64,000 nucleotides of DNA from Botrimarina mediterranea (GTDB taxonomy: Bacteria; Planctomycetota; Planctomycetia; Pirellulales; Lacipirellulaceae). Positions within the stretch are counted from its first letter, which is position 1. Each line of letters starts with the position of its first letter. Under the pieces are notes generated by a model, which saw nothing but the letters and a program-made list of their open reading frames with translations, did not search any database and was not told the origin of the DNA. The translations under genes and the position numbers were made by a program. Shown here piece after piece: positions 18,989 through 63,101 of the stretch. The stretch lies in assembly GCF_007753265.1 (NCBI RefSeq), contig NZ_CP036349.1, positions 5,330,862-5,394,861 of the forward strand, read 5' to 3'.

Positions 18989-20761
18989 GTGTCGAAGAAG
19001 ACCAACAAGCTGAACCCCGCCGTCGGCCTCGGCTGCGCGACGCTCTTCGCCCTGCCGTTCGCGGGCGTGGGTGTCTTTATGGCGTGGAGCTTGGCGTCGA
19101 TCCTCTGGCTCTCTTGGTCGGCGGCGTCGTGGGTTGAAGTCCCTGCAACGATTACGAGCGTCGAGTTGCAGAGGACTGGCGATAAGAAGAACAGCCTGCG
19201 AGTCGTCGCCGACTATCGCTACGAATACGCCGGCCAGGCTTACGAGAGCGACCGCGTCGGCCTCTCAACGATGGCGGATAACTTCGGCTCGTACCATCGC
19301 CGCCTGCACGATCGGCTGCACGCTGCGTGGAAGGCGGAGAAGACCGTCGATTGCTTTGTCGATCCCAATGATCCAACGCAGGCGCTGCTTGATCGTCGCC
19401 TGCGGCCGGTCGTGGTTGTGTATCATGTGCCGTTCGTGCTCGCCTTCGGCGGCGTCGGCTTCGGGATCATCGCGGCGGCCCTCTACGGAATGAGAAAGGC
19501 TCGGCGGGACGATGTGATCTCCGCCGACTCGCCCGATAAGCCCTGGCTGTTGCGCGACGAATGGCGTGAGGGCGTGCAGCGCGAAGGCAACAAGGAGTTC
19601 TACGGGGTGGCGTTCTTCGCCGTCTTGTGGAACAGCATCGCCCTGCCGTTCGCGGCGATCTTCCTGATGAGCGACGACAAGAAGCCTTGGTGGCTTTACC
19701 TGATCGTCGCGATCTTCCCCGCTGTCGGCGTCGGCTTCATCGGCTGGCTGGTGAAGCACTGGCTCCGTCGCCGCAAGTACGGCGCCTCGACGCTTCGGCT
19801 GGCGACGATGCCGGGCGTCGTCGGCGGCAAGTTGGCGGGCGTCATCCTGGCGCCGGAGGCGGTGCGTGCCGCCGACGCGGTGCGCGTCTCACTGACCTGC
19901 ACCCGGGTCGTCCGCCGTGGCAAGAACTCCACGACCGAGGTCTTGTGGCAGGACGAACGCGACATCGCCAAGTTCCTCGACGCCGGCGAGCCCGGCAGCT
20001 TCGGCGTGCCGATAACGTTCACGATCCCCAGCCATGCCCAACCGACCGACGACGACAAACGAGTTGCGTGGACGCTCAAGGCCATGGCCGAGCTGCCGGG
20101 GATCGACTACGCGGCTTCGTTCGAGGTTCCGGTCTTCCGCACCGAAGACTCGCAAGAGAATATCGACGTCGAACTCACCGCGCTGAGCGAGTACGAATCG
20201 GATAAACCGCTCGAAGCGCTGCTCGCTGCCGAAGGAATTCTCGTCGAACCGCAAGCGGCGCTGGGGAGCATCCGTTACTTCGCCCCCGCGGGTCGGCATC
20301 TGGGCATGGCGATCCCGCTCACGATCATGACGCTGATCGTCGGCGGCGCGAGCCTTGGGCTGCTCTGGAACTCCGTCTGGCTGATCGGCGGCGCCTCGTT
20401 GCTGGTGACGCTGGTGATGATCGCCGCGACGCTGCACACGTGGCTCGCCGAGTCCGAGCTGATCGTCGCCGACGACCATTGGACGACCCGCCAAGCCTGG
20501 CGCGGCCTGGCCGGGAGTCCACGCACCTTCGAGACCCAATACGTTCGCGCGATTGAGCTACGGACAACCTCGACATCGCAGTCCGGCAACAACGTGCAGC
20601 GTTACCAAGACGTCGTCGCCAGACTCCTCGGCGAACCCAAACCCGTCAAACTCCTCGGCAGCCTCCGCAGCGCCGCCGCGGCGCGAAAGCTCGTGCTTGA
20701 CCTGCGACAGCGGGCCGGGCTGAATGACTTACAAGAATTGGCCGCAGATGATCGCAGATAG
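18989..20761 (+). CDS. DUF3592 membrane protein
   Basis: 590 residues from a GTG at 18989. The N-terminal helix (about 10-40) is followed by a DUF3592 segment (EVPATITSVEL ... DYRYEYAGQAYESDRVGL ... DCFVDPNDPTQALLDR) and a second helix; more helices lie near 200-260 and 430-480, with soluble domains between. The function of DUF3592 proteins is unknown. The last seven residues, LAADDRR, and the TAG stop are encoded by an intergenic repeat at 20741-20770 shared with the convergent neighbour, which ends in the same residues. No operon partner is seen. Confidence 0.78.
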   Translation: MSKKTNKLNPAVGLGCATLFALPFAGVGVFMAWSLASILWLSWSAASWVEVPATITSVELQRTGDKKNSLRVVADYRYEYAGQAYESDRVGLSTMADNFGSYHRRLHDRLHAAWKAEKTVDCFVDPNDPTQALLDRRLRPVVVVYHVPFVLAFGGVGFGIIAAALYGMRKARRDDVISADSPDKPWLLRDEWREGVQREGNKEFYGVAFFAVLWNSIALPFAAIFLMSDDKKPWWLYLIVAIFPAVGVGFIGWLVKHWLRRRKYGASTLRLATMPGVVGGKLAGVILAPEAVRAADAVRVSLTCTRVVRRGKNSTTEVLWQDERDIAKFLDAGEPGSFGVPITFTIPSHAQPTDDDKRVAWTLKAMAELPGIDYAASFEVPVFRTEDSQENIDVELTALSEYESDKPLEALLAAEGILVEPQAALGSIRYFAPAGRHLGMAIPLTIMTLIVGGASLGLLWNSVWLIGGASLLVTLVMIAATLHTWLAESELIVADDHWTTRQAWRGLAGSPRTFETQYVRAIELRTTSTSQSGNNVQRYQDVVARLLGEPKPVKLLGSLRSAAAARKLVLDLRQRAGLNDLQELAADDRR

Positions 20762-20905
20762 GCGCAGATGAAACGGTTCATTTGTAGGAGGCGTCTCTGA
20801 CGCCGATTTCTCGCACCATGCCGTTTCGGAATGGGGGCCGTAATCGGGGTCGGGAGACCCCTCCTACATTTCTCTTATCGGCGCTTATCTGCGATCATCT
20901 GCGGC
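20741..20905. repeat. Composite palindrome: outer GCAGATGATCGCAGAT arms around an 86-bp family A element
   Basis: The outer arms at 20741-20770 and 20876-20905 pair over 30 bp with a few mismatches. Each arm encodes the C-terminal AADDRR and stop of a convergent gene. Inside lies an 86-bp near-palindrome (20783-20868, starting TGTAGGAGGCGTCT and ending CCCCTCCTACA) that recurs at 54354-54439. Confidence 0.88.
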
Positions 20906-25902: not shown

Positions 25903-26120
25903 TGGCTCCGTCCTCGCAGCAACCGCAGCCGGTCCACCCCCTCGCCGACCACTACGTCGAGCACGGCCGCGTCGTCTTCACCGCCGCATTCTTGCTGCGC
26001 CGCGGAACCTGCTGCGACAACGGCTGCCGCCACTGCCCCTACCAAGGAGAGCCGTCGGCGCTAGCCGCGAGTAGCCCCACCATCGACGCCACGACCATCG
26101 TTCCAACTCCAATTTCTTGA
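25902..26120 (+). CDS. DUF5522 small cysteine-rich protein
   Basis: 72 residues. The core is HPLADHYVEHGRVVFTAAFL followed by RRGTCCDNGCRHCPY, the DUF5522 signature with a CC-x3-C-x2-C cluster that looks metal-binding. Start ATG and the previous stop overlap (TGATG), so it is the third coupled gene of the riboswitch operon. Its function is unknown. The last stop base touches the next palindrome. It is too short for a catalytic fold and may be an assembly or metal-handling factor. Confidence 0.82.
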   Translation: MAPSSQQPQPVHPLADHYVEHGRVVFTAAFLLRRGTCCDNGCRHCPYQGEPSALAASSPTIDATTIVPTPIS

Positions 26121-26199
26121 ACCACAAAGGAACGAAGGAACAAAGGATTTATCTGCAATTCGTTTGTTCACAAGAGTCTTCCTTTGTTACTTTGTGGTT
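26120..26199. repeat. Family G palindrome, copy 1
   Basis: The left arm ACCACAAAGGAACGAAGGAA (from 26121) is complementary to the right arm ending CTTTGTTACTTTGTGGTT at about 26199. The same words form the element at 36453-36595. It lies between the DUF5522 and methyltransferase genes. Confidence 0.8.
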
Positions 26200-26247
26200 C
26201 CCTTTCCTGCTTTTCGCTGCGTGATCGACGCTGGCTACAATCGCCGC

Positions 26248-28962: not shown

Positions 28963-29757
<795 letters not shown>

Positions 29758-34905: not shown

Positions 34906-35027
34906 AATGACCAATGACCAAGCCCCAATGACCAATGGCGTGCTGCCGCACGGACTATCCCTCATCCCTAGCCCCTAGCCCCTGGCCTCTCCTCCTTCAT
35001 TGGTCATTGGGGCTTGGACATTGGGAT
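34906..35027. repeat. Family E palindrome, copy 2, with heptamer run in its loop
   Basis: The arms are 34906-34937 (AATGACCAATGACCAAGCCC...) and 34998-35027. The loop holds CCCTAGCCCCTAGCCCC-like words (34966-34990). It lies in the 398-bp gap between glgA and mtnB, which are divergent; promoters for both must be here, but none is clear. No gene is seen in the rest of the gap. Confidence 0.9.
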
Positions 35028-36452: not shown

Positions 36453-36595
36453 ACCACAAAGGAACGAAGGAACAAAGAAGGACATTAGGTGGATAGTCCG
36501 GTATACCGTTAGGGTTGGTCGGCAAACTTTCTCCTAACGGACTACCAGACTATCGGACTAACCGCTTCCTTGGTTCCTTCGTTCCTTTGTAGTTC
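36453..36595. repeat. Family G palindrome, copy 2, with inner arms
   Basis: The outer arms are ACCACAAAGGAACGAAGGAA (from 36453) and the complementary GGTTCCTTCGTTCCTTTGTAG near 36572-36592. Inner arms with TAGTCCGGTATACCGTTAGG (36494 onward) and CCTAACGGACTACCAGAC (36533 onward) also pair. It fills the mtnD-mtnC gap. Confidence 0.88.
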
Positions 36596-42949: not shown

Positions 42950-43062
42950 GAACCACAGATGAACACGGATGCACACAGATAAGACAAATTCGTCGAGTGG
43001 ATTTCTTGGCAGCGCCGTCCTGTCCTTTTTCATCCGTGTTTATCTGTGTCCATCTGTGGTTC
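42950..43062. repeat. Family F palindrome, copy 1
   Basis: The left arm ACCACAGATGAACACGGATG (from 42952) pairs with the right arm, which runs from CATCCGTGTTTATCTGTG at 43031 to GTGGTTC at 43062. The copy at 50266-50427 uses the same words. It lies between def and fmt. Confidence 0.92.
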
Positions 43063-45859: not shown

Positions 45860-45887
45860 AGAGTCCACCACCGAGTGAGAATCTATG

Positions 45888-45965
45888 AATGACCAATGAC
45901 CAAGCCCCAATGACCAATGCTCGAAACTAGCTGCATTGGTCATTGGGATTTGGTCATTGGGCATT
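45888..45965. repeat. Family E palindrome, copy 3
   Basis: The arms at 45888-45920 and 45933-45965, 33 bp each, pair with few mismatches (AATGACCAATGACCAAGCCC...). It lies between lpdA and aceE. Confidence 0.93.
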
Positions 45966-46002
45966 CGATGAGCTCTGTGGTTAATCCGACCTAGGTACTC
46001 CT

Positions 46003-50265: not shown

Positions 50266-50427
50266 GGAACCACAGATAAACACCGATGGACACGGATGAA
50301 GAGCTGAAAGGAGTAGCTGCATACTGCTGCAGGCTCCTACAACTCTTTGCATTGCTGACGCAACCAAGGCTAAACTGCGTCAACAGCGATAAAGCATCCG
50401 TGTTTATCCGTGTGCATCTGTGGTTCC
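50266..50427. repeat. Family F palindrome, copy 2, with inner hairpin
   Basis: The arms at 50266-50298 (GGAACCACAGATAAACACCG...) and 50395-50427 pair over 33 bp. An inner hairpin holds GGAGTAGCTGCATACTGCTG followed by CAGGCTCCTAC. It lies between aceF and the STAS gene. Confidence 0.92.
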
Positions 50428-51086: not shown

Positions 51087-51154
51087 GTCTCGCGCAGAGA
51101 CGCAGAGGAAGGCGAGCCGGCGACGCGGGTCGCCGGAGGACTCACGCAAAGGCG
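51087..51154. repeat. Family H element interrupted by a family D-like hairpin
   Basis: TCTCGCGCAGAGACGCAGAGG (51088-51108) and ACTCACGCAAAGGCG (51140-51154) match the left arm of the element at 52051. Between them lies GGCGAGCCGGCGACGCGGGT and CGCCGG, a short family D-type palindrome. This reads as one element nested in another. Confidence 0.7.
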
Positions 51155-51245
51155 TGAAGCCTCATAGGAGCGATTGCTGTGGTCAATTCGTGCGTGACCG
51201 GCGTATAGAAGTAGCAGCAGACAACCCCACGCCAGCTTCGCCGCC

Positions 51246-51980
51246 ATGATCGGTCCCGCTGATTCCAACGCCACGCCGCCCGCCGCTCCGCAACCGATGC
51301 GCGAGTTGGTCGTCCTGACGCACGGCATCGCCTCGACGCGGTTCTTTCTGGCGCCGCTAGCGGCCCGGCTCCGCTCGGCGGGATTCACGACGCGGCTGAC
51401 CGGCTACCCGTCGCTGTGGTGGTCGAACGAGACGTTCGGCAAACGCCTGGCGGCGCTGTTGCGTCGGGTCGCGCCGAGTTATGACCGGGTCCACCTCGTA
51501 GTCCACAGCATGGGGGGCATCGTCGCCCGCTGCGCGCTGCGTGAGGAATTGCCGCCGAACTTTGGGCGGGTCGTGCAGATCGCCCCGCCGAACCGCGGCT
51601 CGCACATGGCGACGCGGCTGGCGGTCGAGTGTGGTCATCCGGCGTGGGACAACTTCATCGTGCGGCCGCACCGGTTCATCGCGCCGACGCTCGTCGAACT
51701 CGTCGACGCGCCCGACAGCTTCGTGAACCGTCTCGGCCCGGCGCCGGCGGGGATCGACGTGGGGGTGATCGCCGCCAGCAACGACCGCGTTCTCTACCCC
51801 GAGCAGACCCTGCTCGAAGGCGCCGCCGACCACTGCACGGTGAACGGCTGGCACACGGGCGTCTTGTGGACCAAAGAGACGGCGGAGTTGACGGCGCGGT
51901 TCCTGCGCACGGGGCGATTTGGGGAAGGCGGTCAGCTATCAGCGGTCCGTGATCGGCTCACGCCGATGGCGGAAGCGTAG
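51246..51980 (+). CDS. Alpha/beta hydrolase (lipase/esterase-like)
   Basis: 244 residues from the ATG at 51246. VVLTHGIASTRFFLAPLAAR starts the fold; S88 in VHSMGG is the nucleophile, and the late GWHTGVLW has a plausible catalytic His. QIAPPNRGSHMA resembles class 2 lipases. No signal peptide is visible. The last residues (QLSAVRDRLTPMAEA) are encoded in repeat-like DNA next to a long palindrome. The substrate is unknown. Confidence 0.82.
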   Translation: MIGPADSNATPPAAPQPMRELVVLTHGIASTRFFLAPLAARLRSAGFTTRLTGYPSLWWSNETFGKRLAALLRRVAPSYDRVHLVVHSMGGIVARCALREELPPNFGRVVQIAPPNRGSHMATRLAVECGHPAWDNFIVRPHRFIAPTLVELVDAPDSFVNRLGPAPAGIDVGVIAASNDRVLYPEQTLLEGAADHCTVNGWHTGVLWTKETAELTARFLRTGRFGEGGQLSAVRDRLTPMAEA

Positions 51981-52050
51981 GCCGTAACAAGCGCCGACGC
52001 GGATACGGCCAGCAACCGCTGACTGCGATAGCGTCGTTCGTTTTGCCGCA

Positions 52051-52241
52051 GCGTCTCGCGCAGAGACGCGGAGACGCAGAGGGTAGGCAGCGAAGACTCA
52101 CGCAAAGCCGCCAAGGCGCAAAGACAAAGTCGTTGAGAAACGAGCGCAGCCGCAAACGATCGCGCAGGAACGCGTTCTTTGCGGCTTAGCGCCTTTGCGT
52201 GAGTCTTGAAGGCATCCTGCTCTGCGTCTCTGCGCGAGACG
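52051..52241. repeat. Family H palindrome
   Basis: The left arm 52051-52125 (CGTCTCGCGCAGAGACGCGG ... ACTCACGCAAAGCCGCC) pairs with the right arm 52177-52241, which ends TCTGCGCGAGACG. It fills the 351-bp gap between the hydrolase and the SDR gene; shorter words repeated further out (CAGCGGTC and GACCGCTG) also pair. No gene is seen in the gap. Confidence 0.88.
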
Positions 52242-54353: not shown

Positions 54354-54439
54354 TGTGGGAGGCGTCTCCAGACGCCGATGACGCGCACCATGCCGTAACG
54401 GCTCGGAACCGCAATCGAGGTCTGGAGACCCCTCCCACA
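54354..54439. repeat. Family A element, copy 2 (86 bp)
   Basis: It starts TGTGGGAGGCGTCTCC and ends GAGACCCCTCCCACA, exactly 86 bp like the copy at 20783-20868, and shares the inner words GCGCACCATGCCGT (GCACCATGCCGT in copy 1). It lies between infC and the M50 protease gene. Confidence 0.92.
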
Positions 54440-59287: not shown

Positions 59288-60124
59288 TCACCTTCGCCGC
59301 TGACAACTCGCGCAGAAGAACGTCGAGCGTTGCGCCTGGACGATCCGCTGGATGGTCCCGCCGCAGCGCGGACATCGCTCGCCCGCGCGGCCGTAGACGC
59401 GGTGGTGGAGTTGGTAGCCGCCGTCCTCGTTGAGCTTGTTGCGATACGTGCCATCGCCGAGCGACGAGCCCTCGTAGCGGACCGCTTCTTCGAGCACCGC
59501 CCGCGTCGCCTCGGCGATGCGCCGCCACGTCGCTTGCGTGAGCCGGTCGCATCGCGTCGCGGGGTGCACCTCGGCCACGTGCAGAATCTCCGCTGCGTAG
59601 ATGTTCCCGATCCCCGCGACCGCGCGCTGATCCAGCAGCGCCACTTTCACGGCCCGACGGCTGCCGGCGAGCCGGCGATGCAAGTCGTCGGAGGAAACCA
59701 CCAGCCCATCCGGCCCCAGTTTCTCCGGCCCCAACTCAACGGCAAACTCCGCCGCCGAATAAAGCCGAACCTTCCCCAGCCCCCGCCGGTCCCAGAACCA
59801 AACCCTTTCCAGACCAACGCCCTCAAGTCCCAGCTCAACCCGCAGGTAAAACGGATCGGGCGAATCACCGGCGCCCACCAGCCCCGTCATCCGCGGCTCC
59901 ATCACCAGCCGGTCGCCCGTCTCCAGCCGCAGGACCACCCGCTTGCCCAGCCGCTCAACCGCCGCCACCCCACGTCCAACGACACGCCGCCGCAAATGGT
60001 CCACGCGCGGCGCCACCCCGATCGGCTTCCGCGGGCAAGGCAACCGCTCGAACGAGGTGACCGTAGCGCCCGCCGCCTCGGCGACGCCCCGCCGCATGGT
60101 CTCAACTTCGGGTAGCTCGGGCAT
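59288..60124 (-). CDS. mutM: Formamidopyrimidine-DNA glycosylase
   Basis: 278 residues from the ATG at 60124 (MPELPEVETMRRG); after Met removal P2 and E3 are the catalytic residues of the family. The H2TH region is visible in QRAVAGIGNIYAAEILHVAE, and the C-terminal zinc finger is CPRCGG ... CASCQ. It removes oxidised guanine from DNA. The start codon lies five bases from the inverted repeat that flanks the next membrane gene. Confidence 0.95.
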   Translation of the reverse strand: MPELPEVETMRRGVAEAAGATVTSFERLPCPRKPIGVAPRVDHLRRRVVGRGVAAVERLGKRVVLRLETGDRLVMEPRMTGLVGAGDSPDPFYLRVELGLEGVGLERVWFWDRRGLGKVRLYSAAEFAVELGPEKLGPDGLVVSSDDLHRRLAGSRRAVKVALLDQRAVAGIGNIYAAEILHVAEVHPATRCDRLTQATWRRIAEATRAVLEEAVRYEGSSLGDGTYRNKLNEDGGYQLHHRVYGRAGERCPRCGGTIQRIVQAQRSTFFCASCQRRR

Positions 60125-60128
60125 GGGT

Positions 60129-61228
60129 ACCGCCAAGACGCCAGGAGCGCCAAGGATCGCCAGGGGGAGGTTCACCGCGGAGTTCGCGGAGGACGCGGAG
60201 AACAAAAGGAGTTCAGGGATGGATCGGCGTTGAAGTCATGGTCATTTCTGACGAGCGGGCCGATGGCAACTCGACTAACCGATAACCAGCCCAACGTAGC
60301 CATACGATGGACGCGACGATGGCCAGCACCTGAAATGCTGCACTGACAAGCCACATCAGTATGGTCCATCCTAAGTTGATCTGCCCGAACACTTGTGAGT
60401 AGTGCGGGTACGCCATTAGGCCATTTACTAGCACGATCAGTGGAGTGGAGACGACTCCTCCGATGATCGCTCTACGCCAACTGAGCGGTTGAGGATGGAT
60501 TGGCAACATTGCGATTAGAACCGGAAACAGGCTGACGGCTGCTACAAGCATGCAGACGAAATTGAAGCCAACTGACAAGACAAATGACCAACCCTTCATC
60601 GAGTCATAGATGTCTTGTTCAATGGGTTCCCGACGTAACAACCAGCCCCCCAGCCCTAGAGCGCACGCTAATAGCGCAGTCAGAATCAAAAGGTCCTTAA
60701 TTGTTGTGTGGCCGGCATTTGAGTTGGCTGATCGGTCGATAAGCCCCCAAACTCGTCGCCAACGCCAGCGGACCCACCACCCGATCGCTGCCCACACGCT
60801 CCAAAGTAATGAGTAGAAAACTATGAGCAGCGGCAGCAATCCCGACGACTGAATAACCGCTAGCAAACCTATTGCCGTCAGAGCACTTACGATCCGCCAA
60901 GGCCATGATCCAACGCCCAACCCCGTCCAAAGGCTTGCCAAAACTATGAATGCGCTCATAGCTGCTGCGACGACATTGGGACCTGTCCAAAGCAGCCATT
61001 GCAGGATTGGTCGTGGGATTGGGAAGTAGACCGCCGCGTTGAGGGCAAACTCGATCGACACCACGGCGCCAAACCAAACCGCAGGCGCCCAAATCGCCCG
61101 ATGACGATAGACAAGTTCCGATAGTGATTGAGACCGCTCGTCCACACCCATTCCCTCTCTCCGCGTCCCCCGCGTCCTCCGCGGTGAAATCCCCTGGCGA
61201 TCCTTGGCGTTCCTGGCGTCTTGGCGGT
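60129..61228. repeat. Long inverted repeat pair enclosing a single gene
   Basis: The left arm 60129-60200 (CCGCCAAGACGCCAGGAGCG ... TTCGCGGAGGACGCGGAG) is the imperfect reverse complement of the right arm 61159-61228 (CTCCGCGTCCCCCGCGTCCT ... GGCGTCTTGGCGG). The arms are about 70 bp. Unlike the other palindromes here, the loop of nearly 1 kb contains a complete gene (60213-61151). Confidence 0.85.
60213..61151 (-). CDS. Orphan membrane protein carried inside an inverted repeat
   Basis: 312 residues with about eight hydrophobic helices (for example IGLLAVIQSSGLLPLLIVFY and FNFVCMLVAAVSLFPVLIAM), no signal peptide and no known motif. Its DNA is clearly less GC-rich than mutM and trpB on either side. 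It starts eight bases inside the right arm and stops 12 bases from the left arm of the flanking repeat. In these respects it resembles the orphan membrane gene at 27058. It may be a cargo gene; function unknown. Confidence 0.65.
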   Translation of the reverse strand: MGVDERSQSLSELVYRHRAIWAPAVWFGAVVSIEFALNAAVYFPIPRPILQWLLWTGPNVVAAAMSAFIVLASLWTGLGVGSWPWRIVSALTAIGLLAVIQSSGLLPLLIVFYSLLWSVWAAIGWWVRWRWRRVWGLIDRSANSNAGHTTIKDLLILTALLACALGLGGWLLRREPIEQDIYDSMKGWSFVLSVGFNFVCMLVAAVSLFPVLIAMLPIHPQPLSWRRAIIGGVVSTPLIVLVNGLMAYPHYSQVFGQINLGWTILMWLVSAAFQVLAIVASIVWLRWAGYRLVELPSARSSEMTMTSTPIHP

Positions 61229-61294: not shown

Positions 61295-62521
61295 ATGAGC
61301 ACGACTTCCTTAGACACTGCCGTTCCCACGACGCTCCCCGACGCCCTTGGGCGGTTTGGGGCTTACGGCGGTCGTTACGTGCCCGAGACGCTGATGCGGG
61401 CGCTCGAAGAGCTGACGGCCGAGTACGAGAAGTCCGTCAAGGACCAAGCGTTCCAGGACGAGCTGGCCGTGCTGTGGCGAGACTTCGTGGGGCGGCCGTC
61501 GCCGCTCTATCACGCCCAGCGGCTCAGCGAGAAGTGCGGCGGCGCCCAGATCTACTTCAAGCGCGAGGACACCAACCACACCGGCGCCCACAAGATCAAC
61601 AACACGCTCGGCCAGGCGCTACTGACGATGCGGATGGGCAAGAAGCGTGTCATCGCCGAGACGGGCGCCGGCCAGCACGGCGTCGCCACCGCCACGGCGT
61701 GCGCGCACTTCGGCCTGGATTGCATCGTCTATATGGGCGAAGAGGACATCCGCCGACAGTCGCCGAACGTCTTTGCGATGAAGCTCCTCGGCGCCGAAGT
61801 GCGGCCCGTCACCAGCGGCTCGCGCACTTTAAGAGACGCCGTCAACGAGGCGATGCGGGACTGGATGTCGAGCGTCGAGACGACGCACTACATCCTCGGC
61901 TCGGTCGTCGGTCCGCACCCGTTCCCGCGGATCGTGCGCGACTACCAGTCGGTGATCGGCAAGGAGACGATCGCCCAGTGCCAAGAGCGGCTCGGCCGGC
62001 TGCCGGACCTTGTGGTGGCGTGCGTCGGCGGCGGCTCGAACGCGGCGGGCATGTTCTATCCGTTCGTTGAGCATAAAGGCGTCGAGCTGGTGGGCGTCGA
62101 AGCGGGCGGACGCTCCGCCAATCCCGGCGACCACGCCAGCCCGCTCACCTACGGCCAGCCCGGCGTGCTGCACGGCAGCTTCTCGTACGTCATGCAGGAC
62201 GAGGACGGCCAGACGTGCGACGTCCACAGCATGTCGGCGGGCCTCGACTATCCGGGCGTGGGCCCCGAGCACAGCTACTGGAAGGACGCCGGCCGCGTGC
62301 AGTACACGAGCTGCCGCGACGACGAAGCGATGGCGGCGTTCGACGCCTGCGCGTCGCACGAAGGGATCATGCCCGCGCTCGAAACGTCGCACGCCATCGC
62401 CAAGGCGATGGAACTAGCGGCGAAGCGCTCGAAGGACGACATCGTGGTTATCTGCCTAAGCGGGCGTGGGGACAAGGACGCGATGGAGATCGCGCGGTTG
62501 AAGGGAGTAAACTACGGTTAA
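61295..62521 (+). CDS. trpB: Tryptophan synthase beta chain
   Basis: 408 residues. The pyridoxal phosphate lysine is K100 in [14 protein letters not shown], followed by [16 protein letters not shown] and the phosphate-binding GGGSNAAG. It joins indole and serine to tryptophan, with TrpA feeding indole through a tunnel. trpA lies 626 bp downstream on the same strand, but two small toxin/antitoxin-like genes have come between. Confidence 0.96.
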
Positions 62522-62538: not shown

Positions 62539-62796
62539 ATGGTCCAGATCACGCCCGAACAAGTCGAAGCGCTCGCCCAGTCGGAAGACCATTGTCTTCG
62601 TATTCGCGACCCCAAGACGAACAAGCAGTACGTAATTTTCGAGGAGCCCGCGGTTCCCGAGGCCGACGCCGAGCACATCGAGTACATGCGGCGGGGGCTA
62701 GAGGAGGCCGAAGAGGCCATCGCCCAAGGTGACGTGGCCCCGTGGAACAAGGATGCGTTTCTTGCTGAGATGCATCAGCAGCACGGCGGCCGTTGA
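62539..62796 (+). CDS. Antitoxin-like small protein
   Basis: 85 residues from the ATG at 62539, 17 bp after trpB. The N-terminal half could form a small DNA-binding or dimer domain; the C-terminal half is acidic and helical (GLEEAEEAIAQGDVAPWNKD), as in antitoxins that wrap a RelE/ParE toxin. Its stop overlaps the start of the next gene (TGATG), typical of toxin-antitoxin pairs. Confidence 0.72.
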   Translation: MVQITPEQVEALAQSEDHCLRIRDPKTNKQYVIFEEPAVPEADAEHIEYMRRGLEEAEEAIAQGDVAPWNKDAFLAEMHQQHGGR

Positions 62797-63101
62797 TGCT
62801 TCAGCCGATCTTTACTGGTCCGGCACGCCGAGACCTCGGCGCCATCTGGAAGCACATCGCTGCGGACAGCGCCGAGGCAGCCGACCGCTTTGTCGATGAA
62901 GTTGATCGCCGCATTCACTTGCTGTGCGCTCAGCCGACCCAAGGTGAACGAGACCACCGCGTCGGCGGCTGCCGCCGCGTGCTCATCGGTCGTTATCTGC
63001 TGTTCTACGAACAAGCCGGGAGAGAGCTTCGCATCCTCCGGCTCTACCATTCGGCCCGCCGAATCGAGAAGATGCGGCTCCGCCCCGACGACTCGCCGTA
63101 G
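62796..63101 (+). CDS. RelE/ParE-family toxin
   Basis: 101 residues from the ATG at 62796, overlapping the previous stop by one base. The fold markers are PARRDLGAIWKHIAADSAEA, RFVDEVDRRIHLL, GCRRVLIGRYLLFYE and the C-terminal LRLYHSARRIEKM. ParE toxins block gyrase and RelE toxins cut mRNA on the ribosome; the helix-rich N-terminus favours ParE. With the small gene before it this forms a type II module within the trpB-trpA pair. Confidence 0.85.
   Translation: MLQPIFTGPARRDLGAIWKHIAADSAEAADRFVDEVDRRIHLLCAQPTQGERDHRVGGCRRVLIGRYLLFYEQAGRELRILRLYHSARRIEKMRLRPDDSP

Follow-up and report, generated by a model that had tools for sequence, protein, structure and literature searches.

The inverted arms that frame a membrane gene between mutM and trpB in Botrimarina mediterranea belong to a dispersed family of word-repeat hairpins, and the gene that recurs between such arms encodes GxxExxY (TIGR04256 / PF13366 PDDEXK_3), a small PD-(D/E)XK nuclease. 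We propose, with confidence just short of even, that the arms are halves of a dispersed REPIN-like hairpin element, that its mobility enzyme is most likely GxxExxY, and that arm-framed genes are passengers. For the locus in the window (the whole 64-kb stretch of DNA that was analyzed) our statement is more modest: in three out of four congeners, arms of this family frame a resident, fast-evolving membrane gene.

Inverted arms around a gene between mutM and trpB

The features at the locus are as follows.

59288..60124, minus strand: mutM, formamidopyrimidine-DNA glycosylase (Pfam), left neighbor, co-directional with gene X
60129..60166, plus strand: left outer arm, type A, GCCAAG/GCCAGG words with start-to-start spacing of 8, 9 and 10
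60171..60201, plus strand: left inner arm, type B, CGCGGAG words
60213..61151, minus strand: gene X, 312 aa, several hydrophobic segments, GC3 0.585
61158..61188, minus strand: right inner arm, type B, inverted
61191..61228, minus strand: right outer arm, type A, inverted
61295..62521, plus strand: right neighbor, which we take to be trpB, as in the first-pass annotation

Each window arm has two parts, type A outside and type B inside, and the A-then-B order is common to both. In a local alignment of 60129-60201 with 61158-61228, 65/71 aligned bases are identical and 6 differ, with a single 2-base gap; the 100-bp flanks score 57, whereas 2000 shuffles reach no more than 18. Gene X is separated from the arms by 11 bp on the left and 6 bp on the right, and the left arm starts 5 bp upstream of the mutM ATG at 60124. 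The first-pass annotation, made from the letters alone, had described an inverted repeat enclosing a complete 312-codon gene that starts and stops within 12 bp of the arms and differs from mutM and trpB in base composition, and both points are borne out, GC and GC3 being 0.542 and 0.585 for gene X, 0.693 and 0.821 for mutM, and 0.665 and 0.885 for trpB. Searches of Pfam and NCBIfam with the gene X protein gave no match. Of the 38 relatives searched, 34 have a near full-length homolog of the trpB product at 74-87% identity, and a further one matches it in two pieces. Downstream of trpB, a ParE-like toxin gene (Pfam PF05016) lies at window 62793-63101.

The mutM-trpB interval was compared across 30 trpB loci, one per genome and including our own (G000), with 1.5 kb examined beside trpB. 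An X-like gene stands between mutM and trpB in seven of these loci (G000, G001, G002, G003, G005, G018 and G023); eight, from more distant relatives, have a mutM-trpB gap of 119-305 bp without an X-like gene; and 14 have no mutM within 1.5 kb of trpB. The six homologs align over their length with the window protein at 17-20% identity, and an RWAGYR-like C-terminal motif is present in five of the seven X proteins. A profile search, with a profile built from these same seven proteins, finds a single copy in our genome. Assignment to the X family rests on position, direction, colinear alignment, the C-terminal motif and the profile search, while single blastp E-values, obtained without composition correction, are soft; G001 and G003 hold the weakest members. 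The trpB products of three congeners are 86-87% identical to our own, and gene X therefore evolves very fast yet keeps its place. At the remaining one of the 30 loci, in G007, trpB adjoins three X-family genes in tandem (contig 3, 419144-421668; L095, L102 and L107).

A fuzzy search of the X locus found type A and B arms in G000 and G001 and type A in G003, and no type A or B arms in G002, G005, G018 or G023; G018 apparently carries another word type by eye, and in G001 one side bears an additional set of arms. A genome-wide search of the congener G002 with the arm patterns gave no match, and gene X is retained there. X is thus a resident of the mutM-trpB gap, and what varies is the arms; the arms may have been placed around X, or X may have arrived between arms. 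We reject recent insertion of gene X as foreign cargo because its homologs stand between mutM and trpB in six relatives, four of them without type A/B arms.

The first-pass annotation had read the locus as a minimal cassette without a transposase, possibly moved in trans, and this stands only in part: arms of the same family do frame other genes, but gene X is resident in six relatives. The empty mutM-trpB site that it had proposed to look for exists as the X-less gaps described above, but these belong to more distant relatives, and the congener G002 keeps X. Conservation of gene and arms together, which it had set against its own reading, is likewise partial, with the gene at 7 of 30 loci and A/B arms in 3 of those 7 genomes.

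A dispersed family of word-repeat hairpins

The arms are strings of a 6-7-nt word repeated every 8-10 nt, and their pairs are convergent. The 16-nt core of type A has 49 matches at one mismatch or fewer in our genome, against 0 and 1 for the reversed control. Separation within convergent pairs ranges from less than 50 bp to about 1 kb, with or without genes between, and 9 of the 18 arm pairs examined are hairpins of about 170 bp with a nested second hairpin of ACAGGAT words. The 64-kb window itself holds a second arm-framed segment and at least five additional word hairpins, as listed here without strand.

51087..52240: second arm-framed segment, GCAGAG/GCGGAG and GCAAAG word arms around gene 51246-51980
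20741..20905: gene-less word-repeat hairpin, GCAGAT words
26119..26200: gene-less word-repeat hairpin, AAGGAAC words
36453..36593: gene-less word-repeat hairpin, AAGGAAC words
42950-43062 and 50266-50427: further gene-less word-repeat hairpins

The gene at 51246-51980 looks alpha/beta-hydrolase-like by eye, and the right side of its segment is itself a nested hairpin. Here the first-pass annotation, which held every other palindrome in the window to be short-looped, was mistaken, as these arms also enclose about 1 kb with a gene. The words GCAGAT and AAGGAAC of the window hairpins match those of two of the six GxxExxY genes of our genome (L356 and L353). Three hairpins of AATGACCA words also lie in the window (29679-29752, 34911-35024 and 45887-45966), and this word type was not seen beside any of the GxxExxY genes examined. 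A palindrome, GGAGGCGTCTCCAGACGCC, occupies 54354-54439, and the same kind of repeat flanks RAYT genes at leuS-glgC (L015, L198 and L211).

Among loci chosen for their arms in six genomes, neighboring arms of the same type at most 1200 bp apart run plus-then-minus in 65 of 70 cases, many of them short hairpins. This orientation bears on the possibility that the framing in the window is a coincidence, with hairpins or single arms landing separately to the left and right of a resident gene. Such a history would fit the residence of gene X in relatives without A/B arms, the extra one-sided arm set at the X locus of G001, and a pair of arms 3.5 kb apart in G001 (L120) around two ordinary genes of high GC. 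If insertion were independent, however, orientation should be random; the window arms also share both the A-then-B order and 65 of 71 bases, while most framed genes elsewhere are low-GC accessory genes. We consider coincidence quite unlikely. The L120 pair is itself taken as chance.

Within an element, the two arms do not clearly resemble one another more than random arms of the same genome overall (0.833 against 0.827, with 322 of 2000 draws as high), and co-variation of an element's two arms was dropped as a candidate signal; in G000 alone the values are 0.887 and 0.854 (31 of 2000 as high). The window pair entered this test one base out of register (0.37). By eye, no target-site duplication, for which the first-pass annotation had suggested looking, was seen at 19 element borders (18 plus the window), though old insertions could have lost one. 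Eight arm loci searched against Rfam at gathering threshold gave no match, and a known RNA family was discarded as an identity for the arms.

Similar hairpins extend well beyond these relatives. A pattern of three words, broad enough for types A and B and for AT-richer forms, occurs in at least 120 stretches in named genomes, from which 80 loci in many phyla were taken. Of 84 cross-phylum arms, 45 have a convergent partner (at least 20/26 bases, within 3 kb), against 4-7 for four controls. A search for GxxExxY or other cargo near the arms of the 80 loci returned one weak match (L303). Cross-phylum hairpins are thus mostly away from GxxExxY, as expected of non-autonomous copies, which is not positive evidence for that status.

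Loop content differs at fixed operon junctions

Elsewhere in our genome, arm-framed genes lie between operon genes and run with a neighbor; where called, their GC3 is 0.51-0.64, against 0.82-0.92 for most flanking genes. The check proposed in the first-pass annotation, for other genes framed by the same arms, is positive: type A or B arms enclose single low-GC genes at other operon junctions, with no transposase in common. The cargo is unrelated from place to place and includes SUKH, GIY-YIG and RAYT genes and others without a family. We compared ten junctions between our genome and its relatives, the flanking genes being named provisionally from their sequences, and loop content differs between species at fixed sites.

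At pheS-pheT, a SUKH gene lies between B arms in G000, the B arms are bare in G001 and the gap is 7 bp in G002, while G003 and G018 carry other word hairpins by eye. Within an ABC permease pair, G000 has a small membrane gene between A arms, G001 an A arm and nested hairpin without a gene, and G002 a gap of 30 bp. The MoxR-DUF58 junction holds different genes in G000 (B arms), G001 (B arms, SUKH-like by eye) and G003 (GxxExxY with CACGGAG-type arms), other genes in G018 and G023, and 41 bp in G002. Between pnp and a histidine kinase, unrelated genes stand between A arms in G000 and G001; the gap is 177 bp in G002, 211 bp in G023 and 230 bp with one A arm in G003, and G018 has a small reading frame with decayed arm-like repeats. 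At leuS-glgC, a RAYT gene is present in G000, G001 and G003, with A arms on both sides only in G000; G007 has GxxExxY between A arms, G002 an unrelated armless gene, and G018 and G023 short gaps. At apgM-lysC, GxxExxY lies between A arms in G000, G001, G003, G005 and G013 and between decayed arms in G023, whereas G018 has 138 bp and G002 an unrelated armless gene. Among the places listed for G002, eight junctions have neighbors no more than about 3 kb apart: at five the gap measures 7-177 bp, at two there is an unrelated armless gene, and the remaining one spans about 1.1 kb; gnd and zwf are separate in this genome, and yeaH-spoVR is absent among the places listed.

Inverted repeats flank most GxxExxY genes

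In the flank test, the 140 bp on either side of a gene were scored for inverted similarity, and a gene passed at more than 3 above the best of 12 shuffles. The relatives' sample comprised 40 further GxxExxY copies from 12 genomes, chosen by genome among the places listed; 38 have inverted-repeat flanks, and in 26 both arms lie within 3 mismatches of the A/B pattern. Among control genes 10 of 224 passed, and by coordinates two of the ten are gene X itself, one is a GxxExxY gene and one a RAYT gene. In 30 arm-bearing genomes of other phyla, 25 of 30 GxxExxY copies passed, two of them (L393 and L401) by GC-rich or low-complexity repeats and not by word arms. The words beside GxxExxY genes include GCCAAG, GCGGAG or CACAGAG, AAGGAAC, CGAAT, GCAGAT, GGGGATG, AGGAT and CACTAAT. 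None of the six GxxExxY genes of our own genome has B arms, though the genome has B arms. Type A ends are shared by the GxxExxY unit at apgM-lysC (L016), whose enzyme is not known as a transposase.

Eight plasmid records were chosen by the protein alone and not by arms, and of their GxxExxY genes three pass the flank score, although in one of the three, L427, the stop codon was set wrongly. By eye, clean inverted word arms are present in two records (Bacteroides finegoldii and Bernardetia), one-sided arms between fabD and fabG in a Sphingomonas record, and direct word repeats in Persicobacter, a Fusobacteria record and Prevotella. Direct instead of inverted word repeats were seen by eye to flank the GxxExxY genes L424, L429, L430 and L417. 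A hairpin-homing model would have to explain direct-repeat flanks, for example as one hairpin duplicated by insertion.

The catalytic columns are conserved at D66 (46/46), E76 (44/46) and K78 (46/46), and since these PD-(D/E)XK residues are kept, the GxxExxY proteins look active. Framed GxxExxY loci are retained from one species to another, and any movement is therefore slow.

Word type clusters on the nuclease tree

The nuclease trees are quick trees of short sequences, in which single branches are unreliable. On a tree of 46 sequences, 44 of them typed by eye, the word types need 15 changes against a minimum of 11 and a shuffled mean of 30.6 (0/200 as low). Much of this clustering is orthology: the type A copies of six species all sit at one junction, apgM-lysC. 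The type A nucleases of one tree group do not occupy three separate loci, since L379 in G013 also lies at apgM-lysC. When each locus is represented by a single row (24 rows, 22 typed), 11 changes are needed, which is the minimum, against a shuffled mean of 16.0 (0/200 as low). The B words of five loci then form one group (support 76) and the GCAGAT-type words of two loci another (support 84); A words, one row per locus, do not cluster (3 changes, 117/500 shuffles as low). Word type is not strictly tied to the nuclease gene. The locus before apgM carries AAGGAAC words in five genomes, CACAAAG-like words in one and CACGACG in one. In G000, G001, G003 and G023, two adjacent GxxExxY copies of a single operon keep different words: AAGGAAC stands ahead of apgM and GCCAAG behind it.

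The arms might instead act at the level of RNA, pairing within a polycistronic mRNA to isolate the enclosed gene or to process it out in the manner of RNase III, as happens with 23S rRNA intervening sequences, with selection keeping them around operon inserts. It is in line with this that arms abut stop and start codons inside operons (pheS-pheT, MoxR-DUF58 and apgM-lysC) and that they are kept at orthologous GxxExxY loci across several species. Many arm pairs contain no gene, however; on the nuclease tree, word types group together even from different loci; direct repeats were seen by eye at some flanks; and the eight loci compared with Rfam gave no match at gathering threshold. We regard an RNA-level role as decidedly unlikely to be the explanation.

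The nuclease co-occurs with the arms

Among 39 genomes including our own, PDDEXK_3 is present in 25/25 with exact arm patterns and in 6/14 without (Fisher 4.9e-5, uncorrected for kinship). Co-occurrence is weaker in a phylum sample of 119 genomes including our own, where presence was called at E<=1e-10: 17/21 genomes with arms and 36/98 without have the nuclease (Fisher 2.5e-4, also uncorrected for kinship), and two of the four arm-bearing genomes that lack it are arm-rich (34 arms in G126 and 16 in G114). In other phyla, 32 of 37 arm-bearing genomes have PDDEXK_3 and 5 do not, against 3/14 well-known control genomes, a comparison likewise uncorrected for kinship. A nuclease gene that is mere cargo would co-occur trivially. 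The congener G002, without arms and without GxxExxY, serves as a natural control. One genome of the phylum sample, G119 (12.3 Mb), has 210 exact arm matches and two PDDEXK_3 genes at E<=1e-10; its arms among the matches listed are CACGGAG words.

RAYT was considered as the arm-moving enzyme and discarded, as its presence does not track the arms: at E<=1e-10 it occurs in 34/39 genomes, 23/25 with arms and 11/14 without, and G002 has one. Within the A arms of L015, the RAYT gene is accompanied by REP-type inverted repeats of its own.

The arms could also belong to an ordinary family of MITEs or mobile insertion cassettes moved in trans by some transposase, with GxxExxY only as the commonest cargo. 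Convergent pairs from less than 50 bp to about 1 kb, with and without genes, fit such a family, as do several unrelated cargo genes (SUKH, GIY-YIG, RAYT and others without a family), and arm-rich genomes without GxxExxY exist. However, the arms have no single terminal sequence, their words varying by locus and clustering on the GxxExxY tree; no target duplication was seen by eye; and almost all GxxExxY genes that were examined have inverted repeats beside them, whereas the other cargo varies. The sole transposase met between arms, RAYT, does not track them. We judge this explanation unlikely.

Discussion

In the model that we infer, which covers nuclease action on the arms, any movement and its route, a full element would consist of an arm, a GxxExxY gene and an inverted arm. 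Its non-autonomous forms would be bare hairpins, some with a nested second hairpin, and cassettes with another gene between the arms. The nuclease would recognize and cut arms of its own word type, probably in cruciform or hairpin form; through repair or strand transfer, the DNA bounded by arms would then be copied into a different hairpin or gap. The content of the loop would be exchanged and the site would stay. No movement was observed in the genomes compared.

Several known systems resemble this arrangement in part. RAYT genes are flanked by their own units and are mostly single-copy. The REPIN-RAYT system (Bertels and Rainey 2011, PMC3116915) has short palindromic units that pair, as inverted repeats, into hairpins scattered among genes, with REPIN groups related to specific enzymes. 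The likeness lies in dispersed convergent palindromic pairs in extragenic space, which are present here. The enzyme differs, however, being a PD-(D/E)XK nuclease here and a tyrosine transposase (HUH) there, and the arms here are strings of 6-7-nt words at 8-10-nt spacing that also enclose other genes. In TIRtrons (PMC3733652), a transposase-like (TIRYT) gene lies between long terminal inverted repeats, some recurring as dimers or clusters. A gene between long inverted repeats that recur in the genome is common to both, but TIRYT genes, as presented there, encode tyrosine transposases, which do not track the arms here. The main text of that paper contains neither CACAGAG nor CCAAG. Because the defining enzyme differs, the element is filed as a member of neither REPIN-RAYT nor TIRtrons.

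Mobile insertion cassettes have terminal inverted repeats and a cargo gene, lack a transposase and are presumed to be moved in trans. The arms here resemble them and MITEs in forming terminal inverted repeats with cargo or nothing between; the ends of such a cassette match a known insertion sequence, whereas none was identified for these arms and no target duplication was seen. The intervening sequences of 23S rRNA that bear an S23 protein gene, a protein unrelated to GxxExxY, are gene-bearing inserts in a transcript that are likewise closed by inverted repeats, but they sit in rRNA, and the arms here lie in operon gaps between protein genes. Integron gene cassettes, which go with an attC site and an integrase, were considered as well; the framing arms here stand at both ends, in inverted orientation. 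A literature search, with figures, supplements and most subscription journals outside its scope, turned up no account of such arms or of what flanks GxxExxY genes.

A bolder reading, possible but doubtful in our view, is that GxxExxY is the founder enzyme of an as yet undescribed, bacteria-wide class of mobile hairpins, homing by cutting cruciform word-repeat hairpins, with repair copying content between matching arms. If this is true, operon gaps would be exchangeable gene sockets, and nuclease types and arm words would co-evolve as RAYTs and REPs do, with unrelated chemistry.

Many bacterial genomes have GxxExxY annotations that state no function. Should nuclease and hairpins prove to form one system, a protein family with no known role would gain a testable substrate, and the hairpin repeats met here in many phyla would have an explanation as a class. 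It would also provide a route by which single accessory genes may pass into and out of conserved operons while the operons stay unbroken.
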